Positions 7,625-13,382 of a DNA stretch of 25,927 nt are shown piece after piece. This DNA comes from a virus. The position numbers and the translations under genes were made by a program. The stretch spans positions 1 through 25,927 of the IMG/VR virus record IMGVR_UViG_3300033997_000085. One strand, 5' to 3'. The notes under the pieces were generated by a model that was not told the origin of the DNA, did no database searches, and was given only the letters and a program-made list of their open reading frames with translations. Within the stretch, counting starts at the first letter, position 1; each line of letters starts with the position of its first letter.

Positions 7625-8935
7625 TTACTCCTGAGCGATTTTCAGCGGTACCGCGGGCACGAAGCCTGGATGCTGAATGCGGTTACGCTGCACCACTTCA
7701 CCGGCCCGCGTGGCGTCACCAAAGCGGCGGTAGGCCAAGACCAGCGCCGGCAAGGTTTCTGCCGGCGTAATGTCCACCAGGCGCACGCCTGATGCCGCTA
7801 CGGCAGTCAGGTGCTTGATCAGCGCCTGGCGCAGCGTATTGAGCGCCTGGTAGTGCTCCGGGTCAGCCTTGAGGGATGCTTCCCATATGGCCTCGCTGAG
7901 GGCGTCACGCAGCTGGATCACGTCATCGGCCACCGGAACCTCCGGCCGCTCGATTGGTTGCACCGCCTGATGATCAATCGAAGGCGTGGACTCCACCGCA
8001 ACTGGCTGCGTTGCCACCGGCATCTCGCTGACGATTAGAGCCACCTGCACTAACAACGAGTCCTGCACCAGGTTTGCCGCCGCCTGCGCCGCTGCGGTGG
8101 TATCCGCACCACTTGCTTGCGGCACAGTGTTGATACTGGTCACCGCCTCAGCGTGCTGTGAGGCCACCGCTACCGCGTCGCGATAACTAGGGGCGGCAAC
8201 AGCCGCGGCTGCACCGGTAGCCGAACCAGGCGAGCTGCCAGGGCGGTTTACGCCAGTACGGAAAAGGCCACTGGTAGAAAAGTCGCTGAAGTAGCTGGAA
8301 AACAGCGCGCTGAGCGCTGACGGCGAATTCACCAACGACTGGATAAATCCGCTGAGGTTGGTAAAGATCCCCAGGAACGGCGCGAACTGCCGTTGAATAA
8401 TCGCGTACACGCCCGACAGTCCATTGCGAAGCCCAATCAAGTTGATCCGGGCACTGTCTACCAACGCCATCGCCGCCTTGTAACGACGAAGCGCCGAGTC
8501 GAACAGGCTTTCTGACGACTTGACCACCTGCTGCTGGGTGTTCGCGGTACCGGTGGGAAACTTGCGTGGTTTGCTGGGGTAGAAGGTCAGTTCCAGGCGA
8601 GCCATACCGCCCTCGGTGCGGCTGTGGGTTAGATCGCACTCGCCCACATCGACCAGCATCCGGCCGAGCCAGGGGTGCACCAACTCGCCCGCGCCTTCTT
8701 TCTCCAACGCTTCCAGCAGCTTATCCCGCCGCTCAAAACAGTCGTCGCCGATGACGTAGGCGCTTACCTTGTGCACCTGAGATTGCTTGCCCAACGATTC
8801 GAAAAACGGCTCATCCCGCTGGGGGTATTCGTGCAGCTGGCCTTTGCGGCCAATAGGGACTGCTGCCTGTTCGATCAGGAAATTGATTCCCCTGAACGAC
8901 GCAGGCAGCAGATCATCGCGCCAGGTCTTTGTCAC
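7625..8935 (-). CDS. Mu gpN-like tail protein with DNA circularisation N-terminal domain
   Basis: A 436-aa protein. Residues 1-120 (TWRDDLLPASFRGINF, then DEPFFESLGKQSQVHKVSAYVIGDD, HPWLGRMLV, ELTFYP) are the conserved DNA_circ_N domain of Mu gp43/N-like proteins. Despite the family name, in Mu it is a tail/baseplate component acting next to the tape measure. The remaining part is Ala/Val/Gln-rich, low in conservation and probably helical. GTG start that overlaps the tape-measure stop by 4 nt (GTGA). Confidence 0.92.
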   Translation of the reverse strand: MTKTWRDDLLPASFRGINFLIEQAAVPIGRKGQLHEYPQRDEPFFESLGKQSQVHKVSAYVIGDDCFERRDKLLEALEKEGAGELVHPWLGRMLVDVGECDLTHSRTEGGMARLELTFYPSKPRKFPTGTANTQQQVVKSSESLFDSALRRYKAAMALVDSARINLIGLRNGLSGVYAIIQRQFAPFLGIFTNLSGFIQSLVNSPSALSALFSSYFSDFSTSGLFRTGVNRPGSSPGSATGAAAAVAAPSYRDAVAVASQHAEAVTSINTVPQASGADTTAAAQAAANLVQDSLLVQVALIVSEMPVATQPVAVESTPSIDHQAVQPIERPEVPVADDVIQLRDALSEAIWEASLKADPEHYQALNTLRQALIKHLTAVAASGVRLVDITPAETLPALVLAYRRFGDATRAGEVVQRNRIQHPGFVPAVPLKIAQE

Positions 8936-11055
8936 TGCGTTCCTCCAGAGCCCACGGTGCGATAACCCACGCTGGGCTTGACGCTCAGACCGGGCTGATT
9001 GGTTTTGGGTGGATCCACCCGCAATCCGGGCGGGGCGTTGGTGAAACGGATGTTCATCTCACCGTTCAACTGGGTACGGTTGGTTTGGGCGGCTTGCTGC
9101 GGAACACTGCCGGGGGCGGCTAGCGTTCCAGGACGGGCTAACAGCGAACCGGAATTGCTAGCCGACAGCAGGTTGACCGGCGGGGCCTGGTCGGGGCGCC
9201 GCAGCAGCTTTGATACATCTGCGCCACCCTGGGTGACGTTGCGCAACGCTTGTTGATTGCGCACGATCTGCGCGGCGTTGGCCTGTAAAAACTCGCCGGT
9301 ACCGCCCCCCTCCCCGGCGTTCCGTATCCGTTGCGCCTCCGCGAAGCTGTTGGCTTTAGCCGTGGCGGTTTTGATCAGCCCGTCGCCACCCTCGCCCCCA
9401 CCAAAGAACTTCATCATCGGCTCAATGATGGGCCGCAGTTCCTCCCAAAGGCTTTTAAACCAACCGCTGATGGGTTCCCAGTGTTTGACGATGAGCCCCA
9501 GCGGCGACCAATCGAACATCGTTTTAAGGAAGTCCATGACCGGTGTGGACAAGGCCACCACGACACCCCACAGCGCCTTGAAGAACTCCGTCAGCGGCCC
9601 CCAGTTATCAACGATCAACCCAATCGGCGTATAGGATACAAAGGCTTTGAACATCTCCCAGGCGGCGAGCGTCGGGCCCCGTATTTTGTCCCACATCGCG
9701 TTGAAGTAAGGCGCAACAGCCGACCAATTCGCCACGATCAAGCCCGCAGCCAGGGCTATGCCAGTAGCGATGATCCCAATGGGGTTGGCTTTCATAGCAA
9801 ACGACAACAGCTTGGTCGCCACAATGGTCGAGACGATGCCAAGCCGTAACGCAGTGAACGCAATGACCGCAGCAGCAACGCCACGGACTACATCGGGGTT
9901 GGCCTCTACCAGCTTCGCAAACTGAATAACCAACGGCCGCACGGCATCGACCACCCCGTTGACCGCAGGTAGAAGAGCACTACCGATGGCCTTTGAGACG
10001 TTACTGGCAGCATTGCGCAGACGCCCCAGATTGAACTCCGTGGTCGCCGCACGAGAGGCATACTCTTTCTCCATCGAGCCTGCATACAGGCTCGCGTCCC
10101 CCACCTTGTTTAAGTTGCCTTTGAGCAAATCAAGATTCGTGAGCAGCGATGCAATCGAGGTCACCGACTCTGACCCGAACAGCTGAGTCAATAGCCCCAC
10201 GCGTGAAGCGGCGTCGACCTTGCCGATGCGCTCAAGGATGTTCAGGATCGTGCCCTGCGCATCGGTCTGCATCGACTTCGCGACCTGCTTGGAGTCAAGA
10301 CGAATTGACTTGAATGCCTGCGATTGAGCCTTGGTAGCCGAAGCACCCTTGGTCATCGACAGCATGAAGTTTTTGATGCCAGTGGCGGCAACTTCCTGCT
10401 CAACCCCCACCCCGGCCATCGTGGCGCCCAGTGCCGCAATTTGACCTGAGGCGAGACCAGCAACCTCACCCAGAGGACCGATGCGAGTCACGATATCGGA
10501 GATTTTCTTGGTGTTTGCCGGCCCGGTGTTGCCCAAGTAGTTGATCCGGTCAGCGAGACCAGTCACCTCGCCTTGGGTCATCTTGAAGGATGTCCGCCAC
10601 GTTGCCATCATGTCGCCGCTTTGGTCCGCTGTCTGGTCAAAGGCAATGCCCATCTTGACCGCTGCCTCTGCGAACCCCAGCAGTTCGTCCTGCGCGAAAC
10701 CCGCCTGTCCACCGGCGGCGACAATCTTGGCGATATCCCCAGCAGCCATTGGAAGTACTTCGGACATCCGGGTGATGTCGGCCCCCATCTGCTTGAATTG
10801 CTCAGGGGTTTTGAAGTCCACGACTTTATTGACGTTAGCCATCTCGGATTCAAAGGCAACAGCCGATTTGATTCCGACAGCAAACGGCGCTGCCATCGCC
10901 CCGCCGGTTACCAGATCCTTGATACCGATTTTGCCCAAGCCGGTTTTTTCGAGGTTCTTCCTGAATGAGCCAACGTTCTTCTGGATGCCAGCCAACTTTG
11001 GCGACAACTTGTCGACGCCAGTGATTAACGCCTTGAGCTGAAATTTATCCGCCAT
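8932..11055 (-). CDS. Tail tape measure protein (TP901 family)
   Basis: A 707-aa protein that sets tail length and later helps DNA enter the cell. Residues about 60-370 are the TP901 core (FESEMANVNKVVDFKTPEQFKQM, MATWRTSFKMTQGEVTGLADRINYLG, ATMAGVGVEQEVAATGIKNFM). An apolar region at about 385-445 contains likely membrane-spanning helices, then three Trp/Pro-rich units (PIGLIVDNWGPLTEFFKALW and similar) recur. The C-terminus is Gln/Pro/Gly-rich. Length is close to that of Mu, so the tail should be similarly long. Start overlaps the chaperone fusion stop (TAATG). Confidence 0.96.
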   Translation of the reverse strand: MADKFQLKALITGVDKLSPKLAGIQKNVGSFRKNLEKTGLGKIGIKDLVTGGAMAAPFAVGIKSAVAFESEMANVNKVVDFKTPEQFKQMGADITRMSEVLPMAAGDIAKIVAAGGQAGFAQDELLGFAEAAVKMGIAFDQTADQSGDMMATWRTSFKMTQGEVTGLADRINYLGNTGPANTKKISDIVTRIGPLGEVAGLASGQIAALGATMAGVGVEQEVAATGIKNFMLSMTKGASATKAQSQAFKSIRLDSKQVAKSMQTDAQGTILNILERIGKVDAASRVGLLTQLFGSESVTSIASLLTNLDLLKGNLNKVGDASLYAGSMEKEYASRAATTEFNLGRLRNAASNVSKAIGSALLPAVNGVVDAVRPLVIQFAKLVEANPDVVRGVAAAVIAFTALRLGIVSTIVATKLLSFAMKANPIGIIATGIALAAGLIVANWSAVAPYFNAMWDKIRGPTLAAWEMFKAFVSYTPIGLIVDNWGPLTEFFKALWGVVVALSTPVMDFLKTMFDWSPLGLIVKHWEPISGWFKSLWEELRPIIEPMMKFFGGGEGGDGLIKTATAKANSFAEAQRIRNAGEGGGTGEFLQANAAQIVRNQQALRNVTQGGADVSKLLRRPDQAPPVNLLSASNSGSLLARPGTLAAPGSVPQQAAQTNRTQLNGEMNIRFTNAPPGLRVDPPKTNQPGLSVKPSVGYRTVGSGGTQ

Positions 11056-11482
11056 TATTGATCCTGCCGGTATGCGTTAATGCGCAGCGCCTGGTCCTGC
11101 GACTCGATGATGAGGTCCAGTGATCTGGACATCATCTCTTCGGGGTCGACCTTCCAGTACCAGGCCAGGTCGTAACTGACAGCAATCAGGTCTTCGGCTG
11201 AGGTGACGCCGACGTCATGAAAAAACCAGCAACTTCCCAACACAACGTGTTGAAGTCTGCGAGATCCAGCTGGTTGACCGAGGACGGTGGAATGCCGGCA
11301 CACACCGCGATGTACTTGGCAGCAACCTCGGTGTCGAGGGTCACCTCCTCATCCTTGCCGATTTTGTACGGCATGGCTTTGATTGCCCGTACCTCCTGCA
11401 CGGTCGGGCGGCGCACAGTTAACTCGCTTACCTGCTCACCATGGGCTTCAATTGGCCCACTCAGTTTGATTGGTTCACTCAT
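11055..11482 (-). CDS. Tail assembly chaperone fusion made by -1 ribosomal frameshift (GT-like)
   Basis: The predicted product is 142 aa: the first 88 residues of the upstream chaperone frame, ending ...VAGFF, joined through the slippery heptamer at 11219-11225 to 54 residues of the -1 frame (HDVGVTSAEDLIAVSYDL...INAYRQDQ). The downstream frame has no credible start of its own, and it ends one base into the tape-measure start, exactly where GT-type extensions are found. In lambda (G/GT), Mu and other tailed phages the shorter and longer chaperones coat the tape measure during tube assembly in a set ratio. Seen: frames and site. Inferred: efficiency and function. Confidence 0.88.
11186..11482 (-). 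CDS. Tail assembly chaperone, Mu gp41-like (G-like, unshifted product)
   Basis: A 98-aa protein of the Mu gp41/phage tail assembly chaperone type. Features: a start at ATG 11482 that overlaps the tube-gene stop (ATGA), preferred over a TTG 6 nt upstream; a beta-rich N-terminus with ELTVRRPTVQEVRAIKAMPY; a helical AAKYIAVCAGIPPSSVNQLDLADFNTLC region typical of this family. The last 10 residues after Phe-Phe are replaced in the frameshift product. Position between tube and tape measure is invariant in contractile and long flexible tails. Confidence 0.9.
   Translation of the reverse strand: MSEPIKLSGPIEAHGEQVSELTVRRPTVQEVRAIKAMPYKIGKDEEVTLDTEVAAKYIAVCAGIPPSSVNQLDLADFNTLCWEVAGFFMTSASPQPKT
11219..11225 (-). 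other. Programmed -1 frameshift slippery site (T TTT TTC)
   Basis: In the zero frame the codons are GGT TTT TTC, giving a perfect X XXY YYZ heptamer TTTTTTC. Slipping back one base gives TTT TTT CAT and enters the long open downstream frame; the zero frame stops 33 nt later at 11186. No stable pseudoknot was identified by eye, although a GC-rich stretch follows. Confidence 0.85.
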
Positions 11483-11826
11483 TGCCAAGTCCCCTTGATA
11501 CCGTCGAATTGCAGCTCAATCGTGCCGTCATCCCCCTTGGAACTGGGTTCATCGACCAAATATGCACCGGCCAACACGTAGACTTTTCCGTTCTTGAACT
11601 CAACGGTTACCGTCATGTCTGTGCCGTTGACCAGCTTCTTTATGTCCAGGTCGTTGGTATGCACCGCCGTGACCTTGACCCACGGCGCAAGGTCTTCTTC
11701 CTTGTAAAAACCTGGCACCACCGTCTCCCGCTTGACCTCCATCAGCGGCGCTTCGCAGCCCCCGGTAATGGTCAACTGGGCACCGTCTACTTTGACGTAG
11801 GCCGTGCCCGCTACTTTTTGTCCCAT
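11479..11826 (-). CDS. Tail tube protein (Mu gpM / gp40 family)
   Basis: A 115-aa protein that polymerises into the inner tube of the contractile tail. The start GTAYVKVDGAQL, the GG.EAPLMEVKRETV motif and the central beta strands (MTVTVEFKNGKVYVLAGAYLVDEP) fit the Mu-like tail tube family; length is also typical. ATG with GGAG 8 nt upstream. A terminator-like hairpin separates it from the sheath gene upstream, and the chaperone gene overlaps downstream. Confidence 0.94.
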   Translation of the reverse strand: MGQKVAGTAYVKVDGAQLTITGGCEAPLMEVKRETVVPGFYKEEDLAPWVKVTAVHTNDLDIKKLVNGTDMTVTVEFKNGKVYVLAGAYLVDEPSSKGDDGTIELQFDGIKGTWQ

Positions 11827-11885: not shown

Positions 11886-13382
11886 TTACGCGGCAGCGTC
11901 GTACTGCAAACGGAACTGGTTAAGCAACGCGAAGACGCGCAGACCGTTGATATAGTCCGGCGGGAACAGCACGTTAACCCGGCTGGGGTCGTTACCGTCG
12001 CGCTCGACGATCAGGTGCTGGGCGAACAGCTCGGAATTCTCAACGTGGCCTTCCAGCTCCAGCTGGGCATATTGAGCGATCAGTTCGCCGCGGATGGTAC
12101 TCGGCGTCACAATTGGCGCGCCGGCGCCGAAGCGGGTACCGTCATTTGCCAGCTTGTGGCGACCGTATTTGCTGGTGATCACACCTTGCAGGCGGCGGAT
12201 GATGAACGCCGATTGGTGCATCGTCTCGCTGTCCAGATAGGAGTTATCCGGCTGGCCGTAGGCGTTCTTCTGGTAGGTCGTGATAGCACGCTGGATACGC
12301 ACATAGCCGCCTTCAAAGTAAGCCGTTGCGATCCCATAACTGAGCAGCGATTGACGTTCAGTCAGGGTAAACCGCTCGCTCGCCGGCGCCGGATCAAGCC
12401 CAGGCAAACTACCGCTCTGGGTTGGACGGCTGGCATCTGCCGAGATAAACACCGCTGTGCGCGCCGCCAACGATGCAGCCTGCACCCAAAACGGCTGCGG
12501 CACGCCGACTTCCATGGCCTGGACGGTCATGTGCTGGTCGTTGCGTGTCTGTCCCGCCGCGACTAGCGTACCGAGGGTACCGCGCTTGGCGCTGTAAACG
12601 TGGCCGAACAACTGCTTGGCCCAGCTCCAGCGCCCCACACTGTCATCCATCGCCGCCTTCCAGGCATTGAGACTGGTCGTATCAGACCAGGGCATGCAGA
12701 TGAATTCGAAAGGCTCGTCGCCCAGGGCGGCCAACGCTTCTACCTGATCAGGCGCCCCAACGCCGCCCGTCATCGCGGTGACGGTGGCCGTAAGCCCAGC
12801 CGGAAGAACCTCGCCGTTGGTCTTGCCCAACCGATTGAACTGCAAGCTGATGTCGTTGCCGCTTTCCCCCTTCCATTTGCAGGTGAGCGTAACCACGGCC
12901 TCGGCGGCCACCGCCGTAATCGGCAAGTCCGGTGTAGCATTGATTCGAACCGCAAGCGCCGATGCGGCCTGGGTAGCTGTCGCGGCACTCACGACAGTGG
13001 CCTGCACACGCACACCGCCCACATACAGGTTCAGCAACCCGGCCTCAGCAGCCACACCCGTGAGGGTCACGGTTGCGCTGGATACTGCACCTTCGGTTGC
13101 GAGCAGCGGCAGGCACCAGACCTCACCCACGGGGTCGGTCTTGCGCCAGGCGTCGTACATAGCGGCCAGCATGGAACCCTGACCACCAATGGTCTTGGCG
13201 AGGGCCACGCTGGGCACCAGCACCAGAGAGCCGATATCGTCGCTGGTGGCGTTGTCGTTCACCTGGCCGACGATCAGCCGGCGCATGGTCGAAGACGCAC
13301 TGTTCGCCGCCGAGTTGTCCATCTCCGCGTAGAACAGCGGAACACGCAGGTCTGCCGGGATGTTACTGAATCCGATGGACAT
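11886..13382 (-). CDS. Contractile tail sheath protein (Mu gpL / gp39 family)
   Basis: A 498-aa sheath subunit, the expected size for the Mu type. Recognisable parts are the N-terminal GFSNIPADLRVPLFYAEMDNS, a GQGSMLAAMYDAWRKTDP motif, and the C-terminal domain with LDSETMHQSAFIIRRLQGVITSKYGRHKLANDG and EGHVENSELFAQHLIVERD. The middle third (about 95-205) is an Ala/Thr/Val-rich surface insertion. The start overlaps the stop of the DUF2635 gene by 1 nt (TAATG). On contraction it drives tube and spike through the cell envelope. Confidence 0.96.
   Translation of the reverse strand: MSIGFSNIPADLRVPLFYAEMDNSAANSASSTMRRLIVGQVNDNATSDDIGSLVLVPSVALAKTIGGQGSMLAAMYDAWRKTDPVGEVWCLPLLATEGAVSSATVTLTGVAAEAGLLNLYVGGVRVQATVVSAATATQAASALAVRINATPDLPITAVAAEAVVTLTCKWKGESGNDISLQFNRLGKTNGEVLPAGLTATVTAMTGGVGAPDQVEALAALGDEPFEFICMPWSDTTSLNAWKAAMDDSVGRWSWAKQLFGHVYSAKRGTLGTLVAAGQTRNDQHMTVQAMEVGVPQPFWVQAASLAARTAVFISADASRPTQSGSLPGLDPAPASERFTLTERQSLLSYGIATAYFEGGYVRIQRAITTYQKNAYGQPDNSYLDSETMHQSAFIIRRLQGVITSKYGRHKLANDGTRFGAGAPIVTPSTIRGELIAQYAQLELEGHVENSELFAQHLIVERDGNDPSRVNVLFPPDYINGLRVFALLNQFRLQYDAAA

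Follow-up and report, generated by a model that had tools for sequence, protein, structure and literature searches.

In phage lambda, the G/GT pair has an overlapping frame just before the tape-measure gene and gives a short product and, by a -1 shift at the heptamer G_GGA_AAG, a longer fusion. Frameshifting in tail chaperones was reportedly found to be widely conserved by Xu, Hendrix and Duda in 2004. Passages of PMC5009743 and PMC2628397 cite that conservation, the first also giving a lambda product ratio of 30:1 and stating that neither lambda product is found in the mature virion, and a passage of PMC3711429 puts the shift at two sites of an HK97-like tail-chaperone cluster at 6% and 7%. 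A second precedent is Mu gp41, in a Mu-type tail module, where the tape-measure gene is preceded by an extension in a different frame. An earlier note on the present DNA mentioned a -2 shift in Mu, and the Mu record AF083977 bears this out ('verified -2 translational frameshift in PMID 15469818').

We analysed a virus record of 25,927 bases, hereafter the window. Its chaperone locus shares with lambda the position of the overlapping frame and the pair of products, but the heptamer is T_TTT_TTC and the chaperone belongs to the E/41/14 family, PF10109. That family and the tail module are held in common with Mu, where GGGGGCGA is combined with an open -2 frame; the window instead combines a T run with a -1 frame. 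SfV orf13 (NC_003444), SfI, AH07 and EPP-1 match the window in gene order, family and T_TTT_TTC, although in SfV the heptamer lies 9 nt before the stop rather than 30. The close relatives of the window are loci in Pseudomonas genomes and the record of Pseudomonas phage DVM-2008 (EU982300, from P. fluorescens Q8r1-96). The latter has 75% DNA identity over 90% of the unit, with an identical heptamer and spacing, and differs in that its record annotates only the short product.

As a kind of site this one is already known, and it would work like lambda G/GT. The new points are confined to where it stands within the family and to the record of what annotators have omitted. Our literature search found no paper linking SfV, tail assembly chaperone and frameshift (the table of Xu et al. 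2004 lay outside the search), and none on TTTTTTC with programmed ribosomal frameshifting in phage.

The chaperone locus and its slippery heptamer

The tail genes of the window lie on the minus strand, and profile matches (Pfam and PHROG) identify sheath, tube, chaperone, tape measure, a DNA-circularisation (gpN-like) protein, a gpP-like hub and baseplate J. The head genes match large-terminase, portal and major-head families; a Mu-type contractile tail with another head type is the SfV pattern. The 98-aa chaperone matches PF10109 Phage_TAC_7 (E 9.5e-22, 77.3 bits against a curated cut-off of 25) and the tail protein family PHROG 166. It sits between the tail tube gene upstream (PF10618) and the tape-measure gene downstream (PF10145), as expected of a G/GT-type gene (Table 1).

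Table 1. Positions in the window of the chaperone unit, its parts and the neighbouring tail genes
Feature	Position	Strand	Remarks
Tail tape measure protein	8932..11055	-	PF10145 E 5.3e-38; PHROG 28 E 8.8e-115
Whole GT-type unit, predicted 142-aa frameshift fusion	11055..11482	-	joined in silico
-1 frame extension (T-like domain, HDVGV...RQDQ), 54 aa	11055..11219	-	open frame; TAA 11057-11055
Zero-frame tail assembly chaperone (G-like), 98 aa	11186..11482	-	ATG 11482, TGA 11188-11186
Slippery heptamer T_TTT_TTC	11219..11225	-	in frame, 30 nt before zero-frame stop
Tail tube protein (Mu gpM-like), upstream neighbour of chaperone	11479..11826	-	PF10618 Tail_tube E 2.9e-34
Tail sheath (Mu gpL-like)	11886..13382	-	PF04984 E 3.8e-26; PHROG 165 E 1e-196

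The earlier note had proposed that the chaperone pair of a Mu-type tail uses programmed -1 frameshifting, a proposal that the motif, the family and the tail-gene assignments support. The perfect heptamer it described is present and in frame, with the phase GG(T TTT TTC). Its proximity to the zero-frame stop also holds, and only the figure of 33 nt needs correction, as this includes the TGA itself. The -1 frame does reach the tape measure as claimed. It opens 160 nt ahead of the zero-frame stop, continues for 131 nt past it and ends at a TAA that overlaps the tape-measure ATG (TAATG, 11053-11057). The junction that had been predicted, ...VAGFF-HDVGV..., has the right sequence.

This arrangement very probably reflects programmed -1 frameshifting by the ribosome, as in lambda G/GT, through tandem slippage of tRNA-Phe. 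Most ribosomes would translate the chaperone gene as far as its TGA, giving the G-like chaperone. In a small share of them, the tRNA-Phe on TTT and that on TTC would slip back one base together, from TTT TTC to TTT TTT, and these ribosomes would pass the TGA in the -1 frame and make the G+T fusion, ending at the start of the tape-measure gene. By analogy with lambda, G would bind the tape measure and the T part would recruit tail-tube subunits, so that the ratio of the two products would matter for tail assembly. Slippage in the host, its rate and the roles of the two products are what we infer in this account. The stop of the -1 frame shares bases with a tape-measure start codon in 83 of 100 distinct relatives, and it is possible that translation of the fusion and of the tape measure is coupled, given that ribosomes reading the fusion would end where tape-measure translation begins.

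Stimulators were sought on both sides of the heptamer. Single folds, comparison of 19 representatives with shuffled sequences and RNAalifold on 10 sequences, all methods blind to pseudoknots, gave no consistent downstream RNA structure. Among the representatives the mean z was -0.5, -0.47 and -1.42 at 40, 60 and 90 nt, with values below -2 in 1, 2 and 4 of the 19, at most a mild tendency to fold over 90 nt; the window itself has -0.98, 0.52 and -0.22 at the same lengths. The RNAalifold consensus (-5.68 kcal/mol) has a covariation term of +0.31, which counts against structure, and changes on both sides in 3 of 16 pairs. Words resembling a Shine-Dalgarno stimulator occur upstream in only 3 of the 19 representatives, and none is conserved. 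In a passage of PMC4066793, U_UUU_UUC is among the E. coli motifs that shift above 0.10% without a stimulator, and the missing conserved stimulator would fit such a low-level shift.

Conservation of the site and rival readings of the -1 frame

The earlier note had suggested aligning the slippery sites of SfV-like phages, and comparison of the loci places T_TTT_TTC in the window, in the Pseudomonas loci and in SfV. An in-frame TTTTTTC with an open -1 frame is found in 31 of 32 entries of a first locus set that reaches to SfV (~43% protein identity), a set in which the window and one contig each appear twice and several loci are mutual copies. Among loci from Pseudomonas genomes, the best 80 of 148 all share heptamer and phase with the window; in each the stop lies 30 nt further on, and the -1 frame stays open for 122-137 nt beyond it. 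The heptamer is invariant in 93 sequences with the 30-nt spacing that are distinct over the compared region, one five-T locus (L023) having been excluded beforehand. Over 100 distinct loci, the distance to the stop is 30 nt in 95 and 21, 45 or 48 nt in the remainder.

Counts of starts and spacing come from a set of 101 loci, 100 of them distinct. Left out of it were the window and its near-copy (L001, L002, L009), L006 and L007 with a duplicated domain, the copies L013, L014, L019 and L021, SfV (L031) with its other spacing, and L023, the sole locus dropped for missing the heptamer. L023, on a 4.7-kb metagenome contig, has five Ts only (~1573-1625) and a further frame disturbance downstream, and is probably a sequence error or a decayed site.

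Two patterns of variation bear on function. The three wobble positions of the heptamer do not vary at all among 19 representatives with less than 85% nucleotide identity, whereas the wobbles upstream have a mean of 1.10 bits; another degenerate wobble, that of an Ile ATC 28 codons before the heptamer, is also fixed, so that a lack of variation does not by itself set the heptamer apart. Beyond the zero-frame stop, the -1 frame varies by 0.78, 0.68 and 1.24 bits at its positions 1, 2 and 3, most at the third, as expected of coding sequence. Motif, phase, conservation and the coding constraint on the -1 frame are established by these comparisons, as is the absence of a conserved alternative start among the relatives considered below.

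Could the -1 frame nonetheless be a separate small gene with a start of its own, and the T run a mere Phe-Phe pair? The earlier note saw no start in this frame, and for the window this holds only in part. Start-like codons lie upstream of the heptamer at -78 (GTG 11303), -18 (GTG) and -15 (TTG), the first opening a mechanical ORF of 82 aa, and the extension itself carries ATG ATG at its residues 29 and 30. Some annotators evidently called the frame a gene, as the match to PHROG 11318 (68 positions) includes residues upstream of the heptamer, and a small gene of its own is annotated at the equivalent site in phage D108 and in one record of Wolbachia phage WO. What survives of the claim is that upstream starts are not conserved. 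One is present in 28 of the 100 distinct relatives; the other 72 have none in the open -1 frame, 64 of these also none through codon 20, and in 3 of the 100 the frame opens no earlier than the heptamer. An independent start for the T frame, considered as a candidate, is disfavoured on the same count. Nor would a Phe-Phe pair need a T at the wobble of the preceding codon, or TTT TTC in all 19 representatives, given that TTC outnumbers TTT by 140 to 67 in the window's other ORFs. We regard this reading as highly improbable.

The viral loci L006 and L007 offer a natural control. Each has two chaperone domains in one frame, with GGT TTC TTT or GGT TTC TTC at the site in copy 1 and GGT TTT TTC in copy 2. 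The amino acids (GFF) are identical, and the heptamer occurs only in the copy followed by the -1 frame, which suggests that the T run is kept for slipping and not for the residues it encodes. Tandem PF10109-like domains in one frame (1501-2023 in L006, 1028-1550 in L007) were also seen in L176, L232, L217, L218, L233, L234, L214 and L211.

Alternatively, the fusion could arise at transcription, if RNA polymerase slipped on the T run and produced mRNAs one base longer or shorter. The site is a homopolymer of six Ts, and of seven in YeP1, ST64B and SfIV. Six bases is short for efficient polymerase slippage. The base that ends the surveyed sites varies (C, G, A, T) as ribosomal heptamers permit, and the -1 frame is open behind all 49 in-frame T runs surveyed, in a search that itself required the ribosomal phase. 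We give this explanation very little credence. As to chance, one further in-frame TTTTTTC occurs in the 24 other minus-strand ORFs taken as genes (6715 codons), which makes the motif by itself only mildly unusual. Its conservation among relatives puts it far beyond chance: the 80 Pseudomonas loci agree in sequence, phase and 30-nt spacing, and in the -1 frame it is the third positions that vary most. That the run is a functionless accident can be virtually dismissed.

The predicted direction of the shift across PF10109

A survey of 398 genomes of the phylum gave PF10109 matches in 52. The 70 matches correspond to 65 loci, of which 64 were fetched (47 with a T run, 1 with a Mu site, 16 with neither), the 65th, L052, having already been read; 3 loci from two Pseudomonas genomes bring the surveyed loci to 67. 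T_TTT_TTN is present in 49 of these (N being G in 28, A in 11, C in 7 and T in 3), a Mu site alone in 1 and neither in 17. In each of the 49, the -1 frame is open for at least 50 nt past the stop. In all nine Mu-clade records, which include the near-copies Mu, SfMu and D108, GGGGGCGA lies near the end of the chaperone gene and the -2 frame is open for 115-142 nt past the stop.

In the family tree, these nine -2 rows form one starred branch. The tree has 98 columns and 97 rows, with 43 of 94 forks open and long branches that include the Mu branch; L230, a broken match, was left out, and nine rows are unclassified ('other'). L222 goes against a clean split, having a T run plus CGGGGGCGA, the CGGGGGCGA in another phase. 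The window falls within a 22-row SfV-like clade of 21 T-run -1 sites and one unclear member, IPK. Its own -2 frame is open only from 26 nt upstream of the stop, downstream of the T run, and ends 109 nt beyond the stop without reaching the tape measure; the GT-type unit has no run of four or more Gs, and the Mu-type GGGGGCGA site is not found there.

The earlier note presented the -1 site as an interesting variation on a Mu-type tail. Judged from these sequences, that framing is backwards: the -1 T-run site is the common state in PF10109 and the -2 site of Mu appears as one branch's departure from it. The midpoint root serves for drawing only, and 'usual' here means a count, not a proven ancestral state.

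Several loci stand apart. IPK, a Paraburkholderia phage (L116) whose record is marked UNVERIFIED, lies inside the window's clade without the heptamer. It has a T-domain-like stretch in a -1 frame that is open from no more than 7 nt upstream of the zero-frame stop, explicable by another mechanism, an own start or a sequence error. L173, L180, L265 and L268 combine an open -1 frame with a T run and an ACC close to the stop but lack a full heptamer; the record of one of these, Burkholderia phage Mica (L265), annotates a frameshift product.

Seven of the 17 loci with neither site form one branch (support 91), with P2-like tails. A follow-up in 149 Pseudomonas genomes gave 71 matches in 50, from which we examined 30 P2-like loci (L235-L264), the best match of one genome each. 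TTT_CGN is present in all 30, its TTT always nine codons ahead of the stop. In every one the +1 frame runs on for exactly 112 nt beyond the stop and has a conserved WWL end. The last codon before the stop is NTT in 29 of them, the exception being L261 (CTG TAA). The neighbours of L255 are a P2-type tube and sheath. A P. aeruginosa record of 18.5 kb, putatively R-pyocin-like judging by its length and its tail genes, has TTT_CGC, the same +1 reading and CAT as its last codon. This record and L261 favour TTT_CGN over the NTT-stop site.

These loci are a lead towards a possible +1 shift at TTT_CGN and/or NTT-stop in P2-like Pseudomonas chaperones; the frame of the extension could also be reached by a -2 shift. 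The NTT-stop arrangement resembles the RF2 site. TTT_CGN resembles the influenza PA-X site, UCC_UUU_CGU, as given in the title of PMC3498833. An extension in the +1 (or -2) frame is also seen among L168, L169, L171, L172, L174, L176, L232 and L266.

Consequences for annotation and for the family

The window site matters mainly for annotation. The longer product is listed in none of nine annotated records (SfV, SfI, SfIV, AH07, EPP-1, ST64B, YeP1, DVM-2008 and BgVeeders33), and a conserved tail protein is therefore probably missing from their gene lists.

The survey matters in another way: it places the -2 shift of Mu as the deviation of a single branch from the common -1 site at a T run, and it brought a possible +1 branch into view. 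We lean slightly towards the conclusion that the direction of the shift has changed within PF10109, with -1 at T_TTT_TTN as the usual form, -2 at GGGGGCGA in the Mu branch and +1 at TTT_CGN and/or NTT-stop in the P2-like Pseudomonas chaperones. If this is true, one family would use three different slips to set the same ratio for tail building. The Mu branch and the possible +1 branch make PF10109 a good family in which to study how frameshift direction changes in evolution.
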